Origin: Acidimicrobiia bacterium
GTDB taxonomy: Bacteria; Actinomycetota; Acidimicrobiia; Spongiisociales; ZC4RG35
DNA length: 64,000 nt
Assembly (NCBI GenBank): GCA_013812505.1
Contig: JACCTH010000021.1
Location: 1 to 64,000, forward strand
Reading direction: 5' to 3'
The position numbers and the translations under genes are program-made. The notes under the pieces were generated by a model, which saw nothing but the letters and a program-made list of their open reading frames with translations, did not search any database and was not told the origin of the DNA. This document shows, piece by piece, positions 11,051 through 57,343 of the stretch (the stretch's first letter is position 1; each line of letters opens with the position of its first letter).

Positions 11051-12132
11051 CAGATTCGTCCGGGCAGCCGCCCCGGATTGATCACCCTTTGAGGATCGAA
11101 GGCGGCGATCAACTTGCGCTGCAGGTCGAGCGTTGGCGGCGGGGTTCCCCACGGGTCGAAGCCGTCGTCCGCAGCACGGGTGACGATGAGAGCGCCGCCG
11201 ACTGCCTCGGCTTTTGAACGAAGCATCGCCATTCCGTCGCTTGAGGGAGCCGCGATGGTGATCTCGCCGATGCCTACCTGATGGATGAAGTCTGCATCGG
11301 CCGGCATGCCGGCAATGAGACCCGCCGCGGTTTGAGGAGGAACCCTGAGCGAAAAAGCCCAGGTGCGGTAGGGCACGGCTGGCCAGACGAGCTCGTTTTG
11401 GGTTTCGCCTCCGAGCCGCGTCACCTGATTACCAACTTCGGCCTCGGTGCCACCCAGGTAGATCTTCGTCGAGGAGCGGTCACTCAACACCGCCAGCGGA
11501 CGATGAACGTCGACCAGCCGGCCGGGCTCGATCGTCAATGTGGCGGTTGAGCGCGGGGTGGGCCACAACTTGAGACAGCACGAGACGATGACGCCGAGCG
11601 ACCCGAAGGAGCCGACAACCACCCGCGGCAAGTCATAGCCGGTGACGTTTTTCACTACCCGGCCGCCGCCCTTCACGATCCGGCCGTCACCAGTCACGGC
11701 CTGCACCTCGAGGATTCGGTCACGAGTCGGGCCATAGCGAGCGCGGCGGAAGCCGGAGACGCCTGCGGCCATCATGCCGCCCACTGTCCCCCCTCCTGGA
11801 TCCTCAGGGAGCACCGCGGTCTGGCCGCGGGTGGCGAGTAGTGCTTCGAGATCGGCGATTTTCACGCCACCCTCGACGACGACCGTGAGATCGTCAGGTT
11901 CCCAATCGATCACCCGGGCGAGGTGATCGGTGAAGATCACCAGATCGGGATCGACGCGGTATCCGATTCCCTGGTGGGTGCCACCTCCCCAGATCAGCGT
12001 GTGGCGTTTCTTAGCGGTCGCCTCTGCCAGCGTTTCTGCCATCTCGTCGATGGAGCTGGGATGAAGTGTTTCGACTCCTTCGCCCAATAGCGCTCGACTC
12101 GCAACCTCGGTTCGGGCGGCGCGAATGCTCAC
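11050..12132 (-). CDS. glcE: Glycolate oxidase FAD-binding subunit
   Basis: Truncated FAD-binding domain (GGTVGGMMAAGVSGFRRARYGPTRDRIL); GTG start at 12132-12130 overlaps the glcD stop. The longer listed ORF reads antisense into glcD out of frame. Confidence 0.9.
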   Translation of the reverse strand: MSIRAARTEVASRALLGEGVETLHPSSIDEMAETLAEATAKKRHTLIWGGGTHQGIGYRVDPDLVIFTDHLARVIDWEPDDLTVVVEGGVKIADLEALLATRGQTAVLPEDPGGGTVGGMMAAGVSGFRRARYGPTRDRILEVQAVTGDGRIVKGGGRVVKNVTGYDLPRVVVGSFGSLGVIVSCCLKLWPTPRSTATLTIEPGRLVDVHRPLAVLSDRSSTKIYLGGTEAEVGNQVTRLGGETQNELVWPAVPYRTWAFSLRVPPQTAAGLIAGMPADADFIHQVGIGEITIAAPSSDGMAMLRSKAEAVGGALIVTRAADDGFDPWGTPPPTLDLQRKLIAAFDPQRVINPGRLPGRI

Positions 12133-13541
12133 ACCCAGGCTCCGGGCGGGACTGATGCGCCGAGATCGAAGCAGCGAGCGCCGGTTGGCAGCACCTTTCC
12201 GGGGTTGAAGCGATTGTGCGGATCGAAAGTTTCCTTGATCCGCGCCTGCGCATCGAGGTCGGTGGCGCTGAACATCAACGGCATCAGATCGCGTTTCTCC
12301 CTGCCGATCCCGTGCTCGCCGCTCAGCACTCCACCCACTGCAACACAGGCTGCGACCAACTCGTCCGCGGCCTGTTGCACCTTCTCGGTCATCCCCGGAA
12401 CCGAAGCGTCGAAAACCATCAATGGATGCAAGTTGCCGTCGCCGGCATGAAACACATTGAGCATTTGCAACTCGTGACGGGCCCCGATCTCGTAGACCTT
12501 GGCCATCGTCTCGACCAGACGAGTGCGGGGAACGACGGTGTCGTGGAGGTAGTAGTTGGGGGCCGCCTGCGCCACCGCTCCAAACGCGGCTTTGCGACCT
12601 TTCCAAAGCAGCGCTCGCTCGCTGTCATCGGCCGCCATCCGCACGTCGCGGGCATGGTGAGCGTGAGCAACCTCGGCCATGACCTTGGCCTCGGCTTCCA
12701 CCGCCGCCGTGTCGCCGACGACTTCGGCCAACAGGATCGCGGTCGCGTCGGTGGGGAGCCCGGCGTGGAGCCAGTTCTCGACTGCCCGAGTGATCGCTTG
12801 GTCCATCATCTCGAGCGCCGCCGGCACGATCCCGGCGGCGATGATTCCGGACACGGTGGCGGCCGCGTCGGCAATGGAATCGAAGGAGCAAAGCAGCGTG
12901 CGCACATCGGGAGGATTGGGAAGCAGCCTGACCAAGATCTTGGTGACGATGGCGAGCGTTCCCTCGGAGCCGACGAGGAGGCCGCGCAGATCGAGCCCGA
13001 TCGGGTCGGGCGCCGCCGAACCAACCATGGCGACCGACCCGTCGGCAAGGACCACTTCGAGGGCGAGCACATGGTTGACGGTCGATCCCTCGGCAAGGCA
13101 ATGCGGGCCTCCCGAGTTGTTGGCGACGTTGCCGCCGATGGTGCAGGCGGCCTGGGAGGACGGGTCGGGCGCGAAGTGGAGCGCGTAAGGCTCGGCGGCC
13201 TTCGACAAATCGAGGTTGATCACCCCTGGTCCGACCAAGGCGGTTCGGTTGTCGGGGTCGATCTCCTCGATCCGGTTCATCTTGGTCGTGACGAGCACGA
13301 TGCCCCCCTCAGTGGCGACGGCGCCGGCAGCGAGCCCGGTGCCGGCGCCTCGAGCGACCACCGGCACTTCGTGGCGGTTCGCAATCTCAACGACTCTTAC
13401 GACCTCCGCGGTCGTCTCGGGTAGTACGACCACCGCCGGTTGTCCTCGATACACGCCCGCGTCTCGGCCGTACACGTGAAGCGCGAGCGGCGTCTGAAGC
13501 ACGCGCTCGGCGTCTAGGGCGGCGATTAGTTCGTCATACAT
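12129..13541 (-). CDS. glcD: Glycolate oxidase subunit, FAD-linked
   Basis: PVVARGAGTGLAAGAVATEGGIVL, NVANNSGGPHCLAEGSTVNHV, FHAGDGNLHPLMVFD, GEHGIGREKRDLM. Confidence 0.94.
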   Translation of the reverse strand: MYDELIAALDAERVLQTPLALHVYGRDAGVYRGQPAVVVLPETTAEVVRVVEIANRHEVPVVARGAGTGLAAGAVATEGGIVLVTTKMNRIEEIDPDNRTALVGPGVINLDLSKAAEPYALHFAPDPSSQAACTIGGNVANNSGGPHCLAEGSTVNHVLALEVVLADGSVAMVGSAAPDPIGLDLRGLLVGSEGTLAIVTKILVRLLPNPPDVRTLLCSFDSIADAAATVSGIIAAGIVPAALEMMDQAITRAVENWLHAGLPTDATAILLAEVVGDTAAVEAEAKVMAEVAHAHHARDVRMAADDSERALLWKGRKAAFGAVAQAAPNYYLHDTVVPRTRLVETMAKVYEIGARHELQMLNVFHAGDGNLHPLMVFDASVPGMTEKVQQAADELVAACVAVGGVLSGEHGIGREKRDLMPLMFSATDLDAQARIKETFDPHNRFNPGKVLPTGARCFDLGASVPPGAWV

Positions 13542-13545
13542 AGGT

Positions 13546-13572
13546 CGTTTTTATCACCAAATCGGCCCCTCC
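13546..13572. repeat. Left inverted repeat of the AbiEi/DUF559-like gene cassette 1
   Basis: CGTTTTTATCACCAAATCGGCCCCTCC; 24/27 identical to the reverse complement of 14634-14660. Confidence 0.8.
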
Positions 13573-14519
13573 AAGGACCCGATCGGTCGCGAAAACGATT
13601 TCGCCTGCACTGCACCATGGGCTTCAGTCACCTTCCGGGCCACCGTCCACGGCTGTGAGAAGATCTCGAAGTCCCAGACCTCGACTACGACAAAGCCCAT
13701 CCGCTCGTGACGTGCTCGCCGTTCGGCATCGGCGTTTCGATCGGTCAGTGATGTGTGATAGCGCTCGCTCATTGCCTCGACGATCAGCGGGCAGTCGTCG
13801 GCGAGAAAATCGACACGTCCGCTCCAGTTCTCATCGCCGACGTCGACCTGGCGTCGAAACCGGATGCCGTGCGGCGACATGATCTGGTCGAACCTTGACT
13901 CGAGATTCGAGGCTGGCGGCACCCATTCGCCTGGCCTTTGTTTCCGAATCTTTCGCATTAATACAGTGCCGTTGCGTCCCGACCTGCCAAGCCGAAGAAT
14001 CAGCTCATCGAAGAGCCGCCCGTTGATCAGGCGCAATGACCAGGCCGAATCGACTGCGCGAGCCACTCGGTCGGGAGAAATACTGCCAGCCATCTGGAAG
14101 AGCGCGAATCCGGGAGAGACGACGGGAACGAGCCGGTGAACCTTCTGGCACCAGTCCGGGATAACCGTGGAATGGTGAACCTTGATTCCATGGTCGGGCT
14201 GCCGCCAGTGATGTACTCGTTCAATCGACACGTGGATCTTTTCGAGGCGAAACCCGGCTAGACCCCACCAGTATCCGGCCGTCGTATGAGAGATGTGGGC
14301 ACCTTCGCCGACCTCGAGAACTGCTGCGATCAGCTGTTGCGCAGGCGTAGAAACACTGCCCGCGAGTCTCAGCACCTGATCACTCAGTGGCTCTAGGGCG
14401 CCGGTGTCGACACGGTAGCGAATCGCCTTCTGGGTCACGCCCGCAGCGAGAAGCTGACGGCGACTCACCAACATCTCTTGGCGGCGAGCGAACTGGCGAA
14501 TGACTTCGTCGCTCTGCAT
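13554..14519 (-). CDS. AbiEi-like wHTH + DUF559/Vsr-like (PD-(D/E)XK-type) domain protein
   Basis: wHTH N-terminus (RRQLLAAGVTQKAIRYRVDTGALEPLSDQVLRLAG), C-terminal RVDFLADDCPLIVEAMSERYHTS...DAERRARHERMGFVVVEVWDFEIF. Confidence 0.8.
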   Translation of the reverse strand: MQSDEVIRQFARRQEMLVSRRQLLAAGVTQKAIRYRVDTGALEPLSDQVLRLAGSVSTPAQQLIAAVLEVGEGAHISHTTAGYWWGLAGFRLEKIHVSIERVHHWRQPDHGIKVHHSTVIPDWCQKVHRLVPVVSPGFALFQMAGSISPDRVARAVDSAWSLRLINGRLFDELILRLGRSGRNGTVLMRKIRKQRPGEWVPPASNLESRFDQIMSPHGIRFRRQVDVGDENWSGRVDFLADDCPLIVEAMSERYHTSLTDRNADAERRARHERMGFVVVEVWDFEIFSQPWTVARKVTEAHGAVQAKSFSRPIGSLEGPIW

Positions 14520-14582
14520 TTCCCGAGCGTGTCGCGCGACAAGTGCGATTGGAAGAGTGATGTTCTCGCTTGGATTTCGCGA

Positions 14583-14608
14583 GAATCGGCCGGCATGCTG
14601 GCCGATTC
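14583..14608. repeat. 26-bp near-perfect palindrome
   Basis: GAATCGGCC-G-GCATGC-T-GGCCGATTC; one mispaired position pair. Confidence 0.75.
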
Positions 14609-14633
14609 GGTTTTCGCTACCAAATCGGCCCCA

Positions 14634-14660
14634 GCAGGGGGCGGTTTGGTGATAAAAACG
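14634..14660. repeat. Right inverted repeat of the AbiEi/DUF559-like gene cassette 1
   Basis: GCAGGGGGCGGTTTGGTGATAAAAACG, reverse complement of the left repeat with 3 mismatches. Confidence 0.8.
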
Positions 14661-14663
14661 CTG

Positions 14664-16199
14664 CTAGGACCTCCCGTAGCCGCCGCCACCTGGGGTGCGG
14701 ACGAGGAGGCGGGTGCCGGGCGACACGGTGAGGGTGGTCTTGGCCGGCAACCGTTCCGGGGAGGCGCCAGGTCGGAGGAGCCAGTCCTCTCCGCAAGCGC
14801 CGGGTCCGCCCCCGGACAGGCCCCAGGGCTGGTGACGACGGCGTTCTCCGATCAAGGAGAGCTCGCACTCCTCCAGGAACTCGATCTCGCGCTCGAGCCC
14901 TTCCCCGCCACGAAAGCGGCCCTCGCCGCCGGAGTCGCGCCGGAGCGTGTACCGAGTCACCCGAAACGGATAGTGCTGGTGTAGCGACTCGACGGGCGTG
15001 TTGGCGGTGTTGGTCATCCCGGTGTGGATCCCCGATTGTCCCGCTTTGGTGGGACGTCCACCTTGACCTCCGCCCAGCGTCTCGTAGTAGGCGAAGCGCT
15101 CGTTCCCGATCAAGACGTTGTTCATGGTGCCCTGGCTCGCCGCGGGGACCCGTTCCGGTGCCGCCCCCGCCAACGCGCCCAGCAGAACATCGGCGATCCG
15201 TTGGCTGGTCTCCACGTTTCCAGCCGCCACTGCCACTCCATCGATCGCGTTCACCAATGAACCCGGCGGCGCGGTGAGACGCAGCGGCCGATAACAGCCT
15301 CCGTTGGCCGGGATCGTCGGGTCAGTCGCCACCCGCACGGCGTAATAGAGACACGATCGAGTGACTGCCTCAACCGCGTTCAGGTTCCCCTTGATTTGGG
15401 AATCAGTGCCCGTGAAGTCGGCAACGAGCTCGCCGTCGCCCACCGTCACCGCCACTCGGATCGCGAGGTCGACTTCGCCCCATTCGATCCAATCCTCGAA
15501 GGCAAAGGTGCCTTCGTTCAGATTCGCCAGCGCGGATCGCATTCGCCGCTCGCCATAGTCGAGCAACGCCCTGGCCAAGTCGAGATATCCAGAAACGTCG
15601 TCGCCGGCCACCTCGGTGAGGCGCAGCGCCCCGAGCTCATTGGCCCCGAGTTGAGCCGCCAGATCTCCCGCTCTCTCGCGTGGGGTTCTGGTTGCCCGGA
15701 GGAACGGTTCATGGAACTCCTCGAGCCAGCTCCCATCTCGGACCGCGGCCATCGGGGAGACAACATGGCCTTCCTGCACGAGCCGGGTGGCGAAAGTCGG
15801 CATCGAGCCCGGCGCTTCGCCGCCGACGTCTGCGTGATGGGCCCGATTGGCAACCCAGCCGATGAGAGCCGAGCGGACAAAAACCGGACGGACCAGGGTT
15901 AGGTCATTGAGATGAGTGCCGCCTGCGAACGGATCGTTCACCGCATACTGCAGCCCGGGCACCGGGTTGAAGCGCTCGATGACCGCCGACACCGAGGCGG
16001 GCATCGAGCCAAGATGTACCGGGATGTGCTCGGCTTGCGCGACCATCTCTCCGGCCGGATCGAAGATCGCGACCGAGCAGTCGGCCCGCTCTTTGATGTT
16101 CGGTGAGTGGGCGGTTCTTCGCAGCACATCCCCCATCTCGCTGGCCACCGCCGCTATGCGGTTACGAAACACCTCAAGGGAGATCGGATCGATCACCAA
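14664..16199 (-). CDS. Hydantoinase B / N-methylhydantoinase (HyuB) family
   Basis: DPISLEVFRNRIAAVASEMGDVLRRTAHSPNIKERADCSVAIFD and RYTLRRDSGGEGRFRGGEGLEREI. Confidence 0.93.
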   Translation of the reverse strand: MVIDPISLEVFRNRIAAVASEMGDVLRRTAHSPNIKERADCSVAIFDPAGEMVAQAEHIPVHLGSMPASVSAVIERFNPVPGLQYAVNDPFAGGTHLNDLTLVRPVFVRSALIGWVANRAHHADVGGEAPGSMPTFATRLVQEGHVVSPMAAVRDGSWLEEFHEPFLRATRTPRERAGDLAAQLGANELGALRLTEVAGDDVSGYLDLARALLDYGERRMRSALANLNEGTFAFEDWIEWGEVDLAIRVAVTVGDGELVADFTGTDSQIKGNLNAVEAVTRSCLYYAVRVATDPTIPANGGCYRPLRLTAPPGSLVNAIDGVAVAAGNVETSQRIADVLLGALAGAAPERVPAASQGTMNNVLIGNERFAYYETLGGGQGGRPTKAGQSGIHTGMTNTANTPVESLHQHYPFRVTRYTLRRDSGGEGRFRGGEGLEREIEFLEECELSLIGERRRHQPWGLSGGGPGACGEDWLLRPGASPERLPAKTTLTVSPGTRLLVRTPGGGGYGRS

Positions 16200-32523: not shown

Positions 32524-32573
32524 CTGCGAACCCTGGGTTCGCAGCGTTGTTGTACAACGACCCCAGCCCACAG
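32524..32573. repeat. Left inverted repeat of the AbiEi/DUF559-like gene cassette 2; begins with a perfect hairpin (32524-32544)
   Basis: CTGCGAACCC-T-GGGTTCGCAG then CGTTGTTGTACAACGACCCCAGCCCACAG. The 50-bp stretch starting at GCGAACCC aligns 41/50 by eye to the reverse complement of 33531-33580. Confidence 0.85.
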
Positions 32574-32619
32574 AATCGAACCCCTTCCAACGCGTCTCGA
32601 TCTCTGGCACGGTTGCTCG

Positions 32620-33522
32620 ATGAAGATCGACTACGAGTTGGGTGAGCTCGCGACATCACAGGCGGGCTATCTCGGTCACGACCAGGCCGTGAGCCGTGGG
32701 CTTAGCGAAGGTGCCATCCGTTGGCGGGTGGAACAGAACATCTGGGCGCCGGCCGGACGCGGCCTCTATCGCGTCAACGGCATAACCGGCGATTATCGGG
32801 GCGTACTTCGGGGAGCCATGGCAATCCTGCCCGATCCGACCGTGTCACACGAGTCGGCGGCGGAAGCACATGACATGAAGTTCGTGCGAAGAGAACTGGC
32901 CGTCGTTACGGTTCATGCCGGCACCACCCACGAGTTCCCCGGCGTGAAGATCCATCGTTCGATCGATCTCTTTCCCGACCACCGGTCACTTGTCTCCGGC
33001 CTCAACACCACCACGCCAGCTCGAACACTTAATGACCTGGCAGCCGTGCTTCGTCCCGAGCACATGGCACGGGTCCTGGACGAAGAACTGGCCGCCAGTC
33101 CCGGCCTCATCGACGAAGTTCAGACGGTATTCGGAGAAGTGGCAAGGCGCGGACGGAACGGCTCGGGCCTCATGCGATCGCTGCTTGACGAACGGGTTGG
33201 TTCGAGTCTGATCAGTGCGACGAAACTGGAACGTGTCGGGATGAACGTCTTCGACGTTGGCGGACTCCCGCGGCCGGTGTTTCAGTACCCGGCGCCGTGG
33301 GACCCATCTCGGCGGATCGACTTCGCGTGGCCGTTTTGTCGGGTCGGCTGCGAATGCGATAGCCGTCGTTGGCATACCCGAGTCAACGATTTTCAGAACG
33401 ATCGCGCCCGCGACAATCTCGCCCTGAATCACAACTGGCGCATCTACCGGTTCACCTGGGAGGACTTTCGCTTACGCCCTGCGATGGTCGTTGCCCAACT
33501 GCAAGCGGCGCTCGCGGCATAA
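32620..33522 (+). CDS. AbiEi-like wHTH + DUF559/Vsr-like domain protein
   Basis: wHTH (GHDQAVSRGLSEGAIRWRVEQNIWAPAGRGLYRVNG), C-terminal RIDFAWPFCRVGCECDSRRWHTRVNDFQNDRARDNLALNHNWRIYRFTWEDF; shares GR(N)G(S/T)xLMR with the 13554-14519 protein. Confidence 0.8.
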   Translation: MKIDYELGELATSQAGYLGHDQAVSRGLSEGAIRWRVEQNIWAPAGRGLYRVNGITGDYRGVLRGAMAILPDPTVSHESAAEAHDMKFVRRELAVVTVHAGTTHEFPGVKIHRSIDLFPDHRSLVSGLNTTTPARTLNDLAAVLRPEHMARVLDEELAASPGLIDEVQTVFGEVARRGRNGSGLMRSLLDERVGSSLISATKLERVGMNVFDVGGLPRPVFQYPAPWDPSRRIDFAWPFCRVGCECDSRRWHTRVNDFQNDRARDNLALNHNWRIYRFTWEDFRLRPAMVVAQLQAALAA

Positions 33523-33530
33523 TTTCGTCG

Positions 33531-33580
33531 TTCTGTGGGCTGGAGTCGTTGTTGTACAACGACCCGAACCCTGGGTTTGC
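33531..33580. repeat. Right inverted repeat of the AbiEi/DUF559-like gene cassette 2
   Basis: TTCTGTGGGCTGGAGTCGTTGTTGTACAACGACCCGAACCCTGGGTTTGC. Confidence 0.85.
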
Positions 33581-57274: not shown

Positions 57275-57285
57275 CGCCGCATCCT

Positions 57286-57317
57286 ACCACCTAACGAACG
57301 ATCGTTCGTTAGGTGGT
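57286..57317. promoter_or_regulatory. Perfect 32-bp palindrome upstream of paaA, candidate TetR/PaaR-type operator
   Basis: ACCACCTAACGAACGATCGTTCGTTAGGTGGT, 12 bp upstream of the paaA ATG. Confidence 0.8.
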
Positions 57318-57323
57318 TGGATG

Positions 57324-57343
57324 CCGGTTTGGTGATAAAAACG
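57324..57343 (+). repeat. Solo copy of the CGGTTTGGTGATAAAAACG motif found in the cassette 1 inverted repeats
   Basis: CCGGTTTGGTGATAAAAACG; compare 14642-14660 and the reverse complement of 13546-13561. Confidence 0.75.

Follow-up and report, generated by a model that had tools for sequence, protein, structure and literature searches.

At positions 13546-14660 of the window, the whole 64,000-nucleotide stretch of DNA that was analysed, a gene for a putative nuclease is enclosed by inverted repeats at the junction of a glcD-like gene and a hydantoinase gene. The question raised by this locus is whether the repeats and the nuclease belong together, and if so, what the nuclease might do to the repeats. 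The window is contig C84 of the assembly G000, which comprises 2.8 Mb in 115 contigs; G001 denotes a congener. The features of the locus, together with one related fragment, are as follows.

12129..13541, minus strand: glcD-like gene for an FAD-linked oxidase, junction flank; adjoins hyuB without the DUF559 gene in most relatives keeping both
13546..13597, plus strand: left type A palindrome of 52 bp with its TATCACC end outward; includes the nuclease gene's stop codon; covariance model R1, 63.6 bits, E 1.4e-12
13554..14519, minus strand: predicted AbiEi-like/Vsr-type nuclease fusion gene (DUF559), 321 aa; Pfam DUF559 and AbiEi_4; PADLOC AbiEi 1.3e-24; PDB profile matches to I-Bth0305I and Vsr
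14609..14660, minus strand: right type A palindrome of 52 bp, inverted relative to the left one and likewise with its TATCACC end outward; the hydantoinase B gene ends 3 bp away; model R1, 67.1 bits, E 1.7e-13
14664..16199, minus strand: hydantoinase B gene (hyuB), junction flank
57322..57343, minus strand: type A outer-arm fragment, second arm missing

Palindromes flanking the nuclease gene

A preliminary description of this DNA had placed 27-bp repeats at 13546-13572 and 14634-14660, identical at 24 of 27 positions, with the stop codon of the gene inside the left repeat and with glcD-like and hydantoinase genes as neighbours. These statements are all borne out: the last residues of the gene, SFSRPIGSLEGPIW and the stop, are encoded by the left palindrome, and the neighbours are the FAD-linked oxidase and hydantoinase B genes listed above. 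Each 27-bp repeat forms the outer half of a full, imperfect palindrome of 52 bp, and the two palindromes are inverted relative to each other. The repeats are therefore longer than had been described, with arms of 51 nt (13546-13596 and 14610-14660) and 78% complementarity. Each type A palindrome reads CGTTTTTATCACC-core-loop-core′-GGTMGCGAAAACS, and the TATCACC end faces away from the gene in both flanking copies.

In the window, TTTTTATCACCAAATCGGCC with up to three mismatches is found at three sites, compared with 0.00 expected. Among the 53 window ORFs tested, two have flanking inverted repeats of at least 30 bits, both of them DUF559 genes, and the next best value is 23.7 bits. The inverted palindromes around the gene at 13554-14519 are not there by chance. 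An Rfam scan of the window matched no family, and a reading of the type A hairpin as a terminator was dropped, as a U-run follows the hairpin on neither strand. At 57275-57343, a type A outer arm continues into an unrelated perfect 30-bp palindrome (CCACCTAACGAACGATCGTTCGTTAGGTGG); this segment is a truncated type A copy beside a possible regulator operator.

The other DUF559 gene in the window is flanked by palindromes of a different type, termed type B.

32526..32575, plus strand: left palindromic repeat, type B, with the GCGAACCCTGGGTTCG end outward; inverted repeat of 50 nt, 82% complementary; type B pattern
32620..33522, plus strand: second predicted gene for an AbiEi-like/Vsr-type nuclease of 300 aa, paired with a palindrome family of its own; orthologue in congener G001 at the same junction, 65% identical
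33531..33580, minus strand: right palindromic repeat, type B

That the two DUF559 genes carry differing repeat sequences had been noticed in the preliminary description and is confirmed here; it turned out to be the key clue, because the palindrome cores are gene-specific.

Pairing of nucleases and palindromes in Actinomycetota

Profile matches indicate that the 321-aa product is a fusion of an AbiEi-like DNA-binding protein and a Vsr-type nuclease, the latter probably active. Pfam DUF559 scores 26.9 bits (cut-off 20.6), the AbiEi_4 helix-turn-helix falls slightly below its Pfam cut-off, and the PADLOC AbiEi profile covers residues 5-181. A profile built from seven sequences and compared with the PDB matches NGO0050 (3hrl, 4.6e-5), I-Bth0305I (3r3p, 8e-4), and Vsr (1cw0, 0.001). 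Residues D237, E248, H255, and D264 are 93-99% conserved in 71 flanked relatives. An AlphaFold model calculated from three sequences has a pLDDT of 53 and is weak except at its two ends; with this weak model, no Foldseek match reaches E 0.001, I-Bth0305I and 3hrl are matched with probability 1.00 (E 0.05 and 0.1), and AbiEi with 0.85. An NCBIfam search of the protein gave no match, and domain searches found no transposase domain, including no Y1 domain, in the gene. In-frame stops are present in several related AbiEi-Vsr genes.

An inverted repeat of at least 30 bits surrounds 50 of the 60 AbiEi-Vsr loci with full flanks in the family, and inverted flanking palindromes are found at 29 of 63 such loci across the phylum Actinomycetota; at this threshold, 10 family loci and 34 phylum loci have none. 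As controls, 1 of 300 similar-sized genes of G001 has such flanks, and 13 of 400 mispaired flanks reach the threshold. Of eight relatives in the same genome, five are flanked by long inverted palindromes that differ in sequence. The left arms are more self-palindromic than their shuffled versions in 69 of 72 cases, the palindromes span a median of 49 bp, and in most AbiEi-Vsr genes an arm lies directly upstream. The sequences of the flanking palindromes are largely gene-specific. The sampled Actinomycetota genomes repeatedly contain DUF559/AbiEi-like genes, often several per genome, and no known function was found for them; the pairing with private palindromes gives these genes a testable role.

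Two further features were observed in the flanks. At four loci from other families or genera (L197, L181, L130, and L209), long palindromes are near-identical on both sides of the nuclease gene, which suggests recent activity or ongoing gene conversion. By inspection, the palindrome tips at many loci often read CGTTYTG.../...CAGAACG despite unrelated cores, and these tips are possibly a shared cut or recognition signal.

Dispersed copies, empty sites, and co-divergence

Counting the genomic copies, as the preliminary description had suggested, gave 10 occurrences of the type A 16-mer in G000 and type A palindromes at no fewer than 23 places (covariance model R1, E ≤ 0.001, 150 of 1098 candidates scored). 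With the same model and threshold, type A has no match in the congener G001. At least 20 of the type A places in G000 are other than the gene unit, nearly all without a DUF559 gene, and the copies are mostly solitary and near the 3′ ends of genes. The majority of these solo copies lie within ~15 bp of a stop codon, and intergenic solos are found between 18 convergent and 4 divergent gene pairs, according to heuristic gene calls in which 11 sites are placed inside ORFs that are probably mostly spurious. The assemblies are mostly drafts with contig edges, so that solo counts are lower bounds. These dispersed type A copies led us to abandon an initial view of the two flanking copies as terminal repeats private to a single element.

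Dispersal is likewise seen for other palindrome families. The type B pattern, AACCCWGGGTT-core-GCCCACAGAA, has at least 30 copies in G000 and at least 34 in G001, compared with none for a reversed control. When sorted by eye, type B cores include GTTGTACAAC, which belongs to the window gene at 32620, ACACAGTGT, which belongs to a gene on contig C96, and further classes in G001. Sampling 1.15 Mb of G001 (44% of the genome) turned up cognate solos for each of its six nuclease genes, and no such cognates are present in a 0.4-Mb sample from a control genome. In 400 kb of a closed genome that represents a different family of the class, three solo copies of that genome's own 49-bp palindrome are present. 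G005, from another genus, matches its own core five times, and two of these matches flank the G005 gene. An outward-facing doublet (C51, ~10 bp apart) and tandem copies (G005, C445) also occur. One type B core class, CCGTGT...ACACGG, is present as solos in G000, and its cognate nuclease gene was not found in the assembly; that gene is either lost or in an assembly gap.

The preliminary description had regarded the repeats as suspect if they were chance neighbours in a genome with many such motifs unrelated to DUF559 genes. This holds for single copies and fails at the level of the system, since individual DUF559 genes each have a palindrome family as partner. Despite the solos, the pairing is not accidental, given the frequencies of 50/60 and 29/63 against 1/300 in controls and the gene-specific sequences.

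At the hyuB-glcD junction, which the preliminary description had pointed out as the place for an empty site, the nuclease gene is absent in G001 and in other family members with adjacent hyuB and glcD. In G005, a nuclease gene with a different core occupies the same junction. The unit at 32526-33580 shows a comparable distribution, its junction containing a nuclease gene in G000 and G001 and none in G005. For two type B solos, G001 shows a clean empty site (CCTAG/AGAG and CTAGC/CTACTT), with no clear target duplication at either; this empty-site count excludes the junctions L061, L064, and L077, which lack base-level resolution against G001. Both gene units and solo units are thus present or absent between relatives, a pattern that by itself fits gain or loss. 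The preliminary description implied a mobile unit with inverted repeats at its boundaries; of this, the repeats themselves, the empty hyuB-glcD junction, and the association with DUF559 genes stand. The repeats differ from ordinary terminal inverted repeats in that both ends consist of a whole palindrome, copies of which are also found alone at 20 or more places. The G001 hyuB-glcD junction itself contains a different long inverted repeat of ~115 bp without a gene (L079, 1367-1480), within a 134-nt stretch with a predicted folding energy of -51 kcal/mol.

Comparison of orthologous units shows that cores change at both ends together while the pairing is kept. The nuclease at the G005 hyuB-glcD junction is 52% identical to that of the window, and its palindromes have the same ends and a different core on both sides. 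Similarly, at the 32620 junction, the nucleases of G000 and G001 are 65% identical and the palindrome cores differ at both ends. Nuclease identity is correlated with palindrome similarity (Mantel r 0.44, reached in 0 of 2000 permutations), a correlation to which shared ancestry contributes. In 19 type A copies with differing cores, 93.4% of stem cells pair and double changes are found in 11 of 20 pairs; stem covariation is 0.413, compared with 0.144 for shuffled and at most 0.116 for slid alignments. The palindromic form is conserved while the sequence changes. With about one core per nuclease, the paired cores amount to a natural data set on the specificity of a compact nuclease, and they allow nuclease-target co-evolution and the spread of extragenic palindromes to be addressed directly.

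Proposed mechanism, known systems, and alternative explanations

The unit at 13546-14660 is probably a selfish palindromic element reminiscent of a REPtron, with an AbiEi-Vsr nuclease in the place of the HUH transposase. The pairing of the palindromes with nuclease genes, their dispersal, their co-divergence, and their presence or absence between relatives are results, from which docking, cleavage, and mobilisation have to be distinguished as inferred steps. Two nuclease monomers would dock on the palindrome through their AbiEi parts, and the bound pair would cut at or near it, in the form of double-stranded DNA, a cruciform, or a hairpin. Repair or copying would then spread palindromes into sites adjoining stop codons and homogenise their copies; the whole gene unit would spread too, if rarely. 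On balance, we favour the view that such units form a new and, in Actinomycetota, widespread class of mobile palindromes: a dimeric operator binder of the AbiEi type, fused to a Vsr-fold nuclease, would cut and spread its own ~49-bp palindrome, and nuclease specificity and palindrome sequence would co-evolve as one-to-one pairs.

REPtrons and TIRtrons, which are REP/REPIN elements with RAYT (TnpA-REP) transposases (PMC3733652, PMC8266576, PMC8049555), are the nearest known kind. REPs are reported to lie near 3′ ends, often between convergent genes (PMC3733652), and the solos described here agree with this in behaving as extragenic palindromes. Similar to REPtrons, the unit has an enzyme gene between inverted palindromes with cognates that are dispersed intergenically near 3′ ends, often of convergent genes, and its palindromes have conserved ends and variable stems and occur as singles, doublets, and tandems. 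The main differences are that the enzyme is an AbiEi-Vsr nuclease in place of an HUH Y1 (RAYT) transposase, for which G000 has no PF01797 match, that the palindromes are ~49 bp rather than 20-40 bp, and that the ends are CGTTTTTATCACC and GGTMGCGAAAACS rather than a GTAG (or CGTC) tag. By architecture alone, the unit is a possible REPtron variant; its enzyme places it in none of the families tested. The partnership of enzyme and palindrome appears to be undescribed, as the HUH enzyme and GTAG tag are absent and no paper on DUF559 together with an inverted repeat was found in the open-access literature searched. The pairing with private palindromes suggests that palindromes of the REP kind have more than one origin, with unrelated enzymes.

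The two parts of the protein have relatives elsewhere. As in AbiE systems, ~180 N-terminal residues match AbiEi profiles, and the palindrome geometry matches that of the AbiEi operator, which spans 49 bp and comprises two inverted repeats of 23 bp separated by 3 bp (PMC7319586). In contrast to AbiE, a nuclease domain is fused at the C terminus, the adjacent gene is not an AbiEii nucleotidyltransferase toxin (the neighbours are the glcD-like oxidase and hydantoinase B), and the palindromes flank the gene at either end and also occur genome-wide. The C-terminal domain matches the Vsr fold (EDxHD) in profile and fold, with its catalytic residues conserved. Unlike homing endonucleases of the I-Bth0305I type, the gene is not seen within an intron or intein and has its own palindromes, which also exist without it. 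The product shares Pfam DUF559 with the DUF559/MTES_1575 proteins, which have a restriction endonuclease (REase) domain, and among open-access papers mentioning DUF559 none concerns a palindrome link by title or abstract. Insertion sequences are characterised by a transposase domain in the gene, terminal inverted repeats, and target duplication; here the gene has no transposase domain, and no clear target duplication accompanies the two solo empty sites.

The AbiEi part allows for a regulatory role of the palindromes. In the strict form of this explanation, the palindromes are only sites for an AbiEi-like regulator, the upstream copy autoregulates, the solos are a regulon or transcription roadblocks, and the nuclease acts elsewhere, for example, on phage DNA. 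AbiEi-family antitoxins do bind inverted repeats of such geometry in their own promoters (PMC7319586), and an arm is immediately upstream of most AbiEi-Vsr genes. We consider this unlikely as a full account, as it is at odds with the matched inverted arms of fixed polarity on both sides of the gene, with solos at the 3′ ends of genes (18 convergent, 4 divergent) rather than at promoters, and with solos that differ between congeners and have precise empty sites; the palindromes may still have a regulatory role. Less probable again is a restriction-like antiphage nuclease whose palindromes serve self-marking, regulation, or cassette exchange, palindrome spread being a by-product. The PADLOC AbiEi matches and the related Vsr restriction enzymes of conflict systems (PMC3710099) agree with a defence function, against which stand the isolated position of the gene between two metabolic operons in the window, with neither an AbiEii toxin nor a methyltransferase adjacent, and the dispersed palindrome family that every nuclease has of its own.

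In a homing explanation, the palindromes would owe their spread to a different process, and the nuclease gene would enter them as targets. This would be consistent with the existence of Vsr-fold homing endonucleases (I-Bth0305I) and with a gene flanked by palindromes. Insertion into one palindrome is expected to leave half-sites; both flanking palindromes are complete, and the genome, searched for Y1-type enzymes, contains no alternative spreading enzyme of that kind, so that this explanation appears improbable. A DUF559 gene lying by chance between two ordinary dispersed palindromes or terminators is the least credible reading. The many type A places without a DUF559 gene would agree with it, but the controls (1/300 and 2/53 against 50/60) refute it, and the gene-specific cores with cognate solos and the hairpin without a U-run also argue against it.

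Separate from the units with nuclease genes, one arrangement in G000 (L189, contig C42, 40432-40927) has an unrelated small ORF between outward-facing palindromes, the cores of which are those of the C85 nuclease and of the window nuclease. The inverted match extends 10 bp beyond the two palindromes, and the arrangement is a possible passenger unit.
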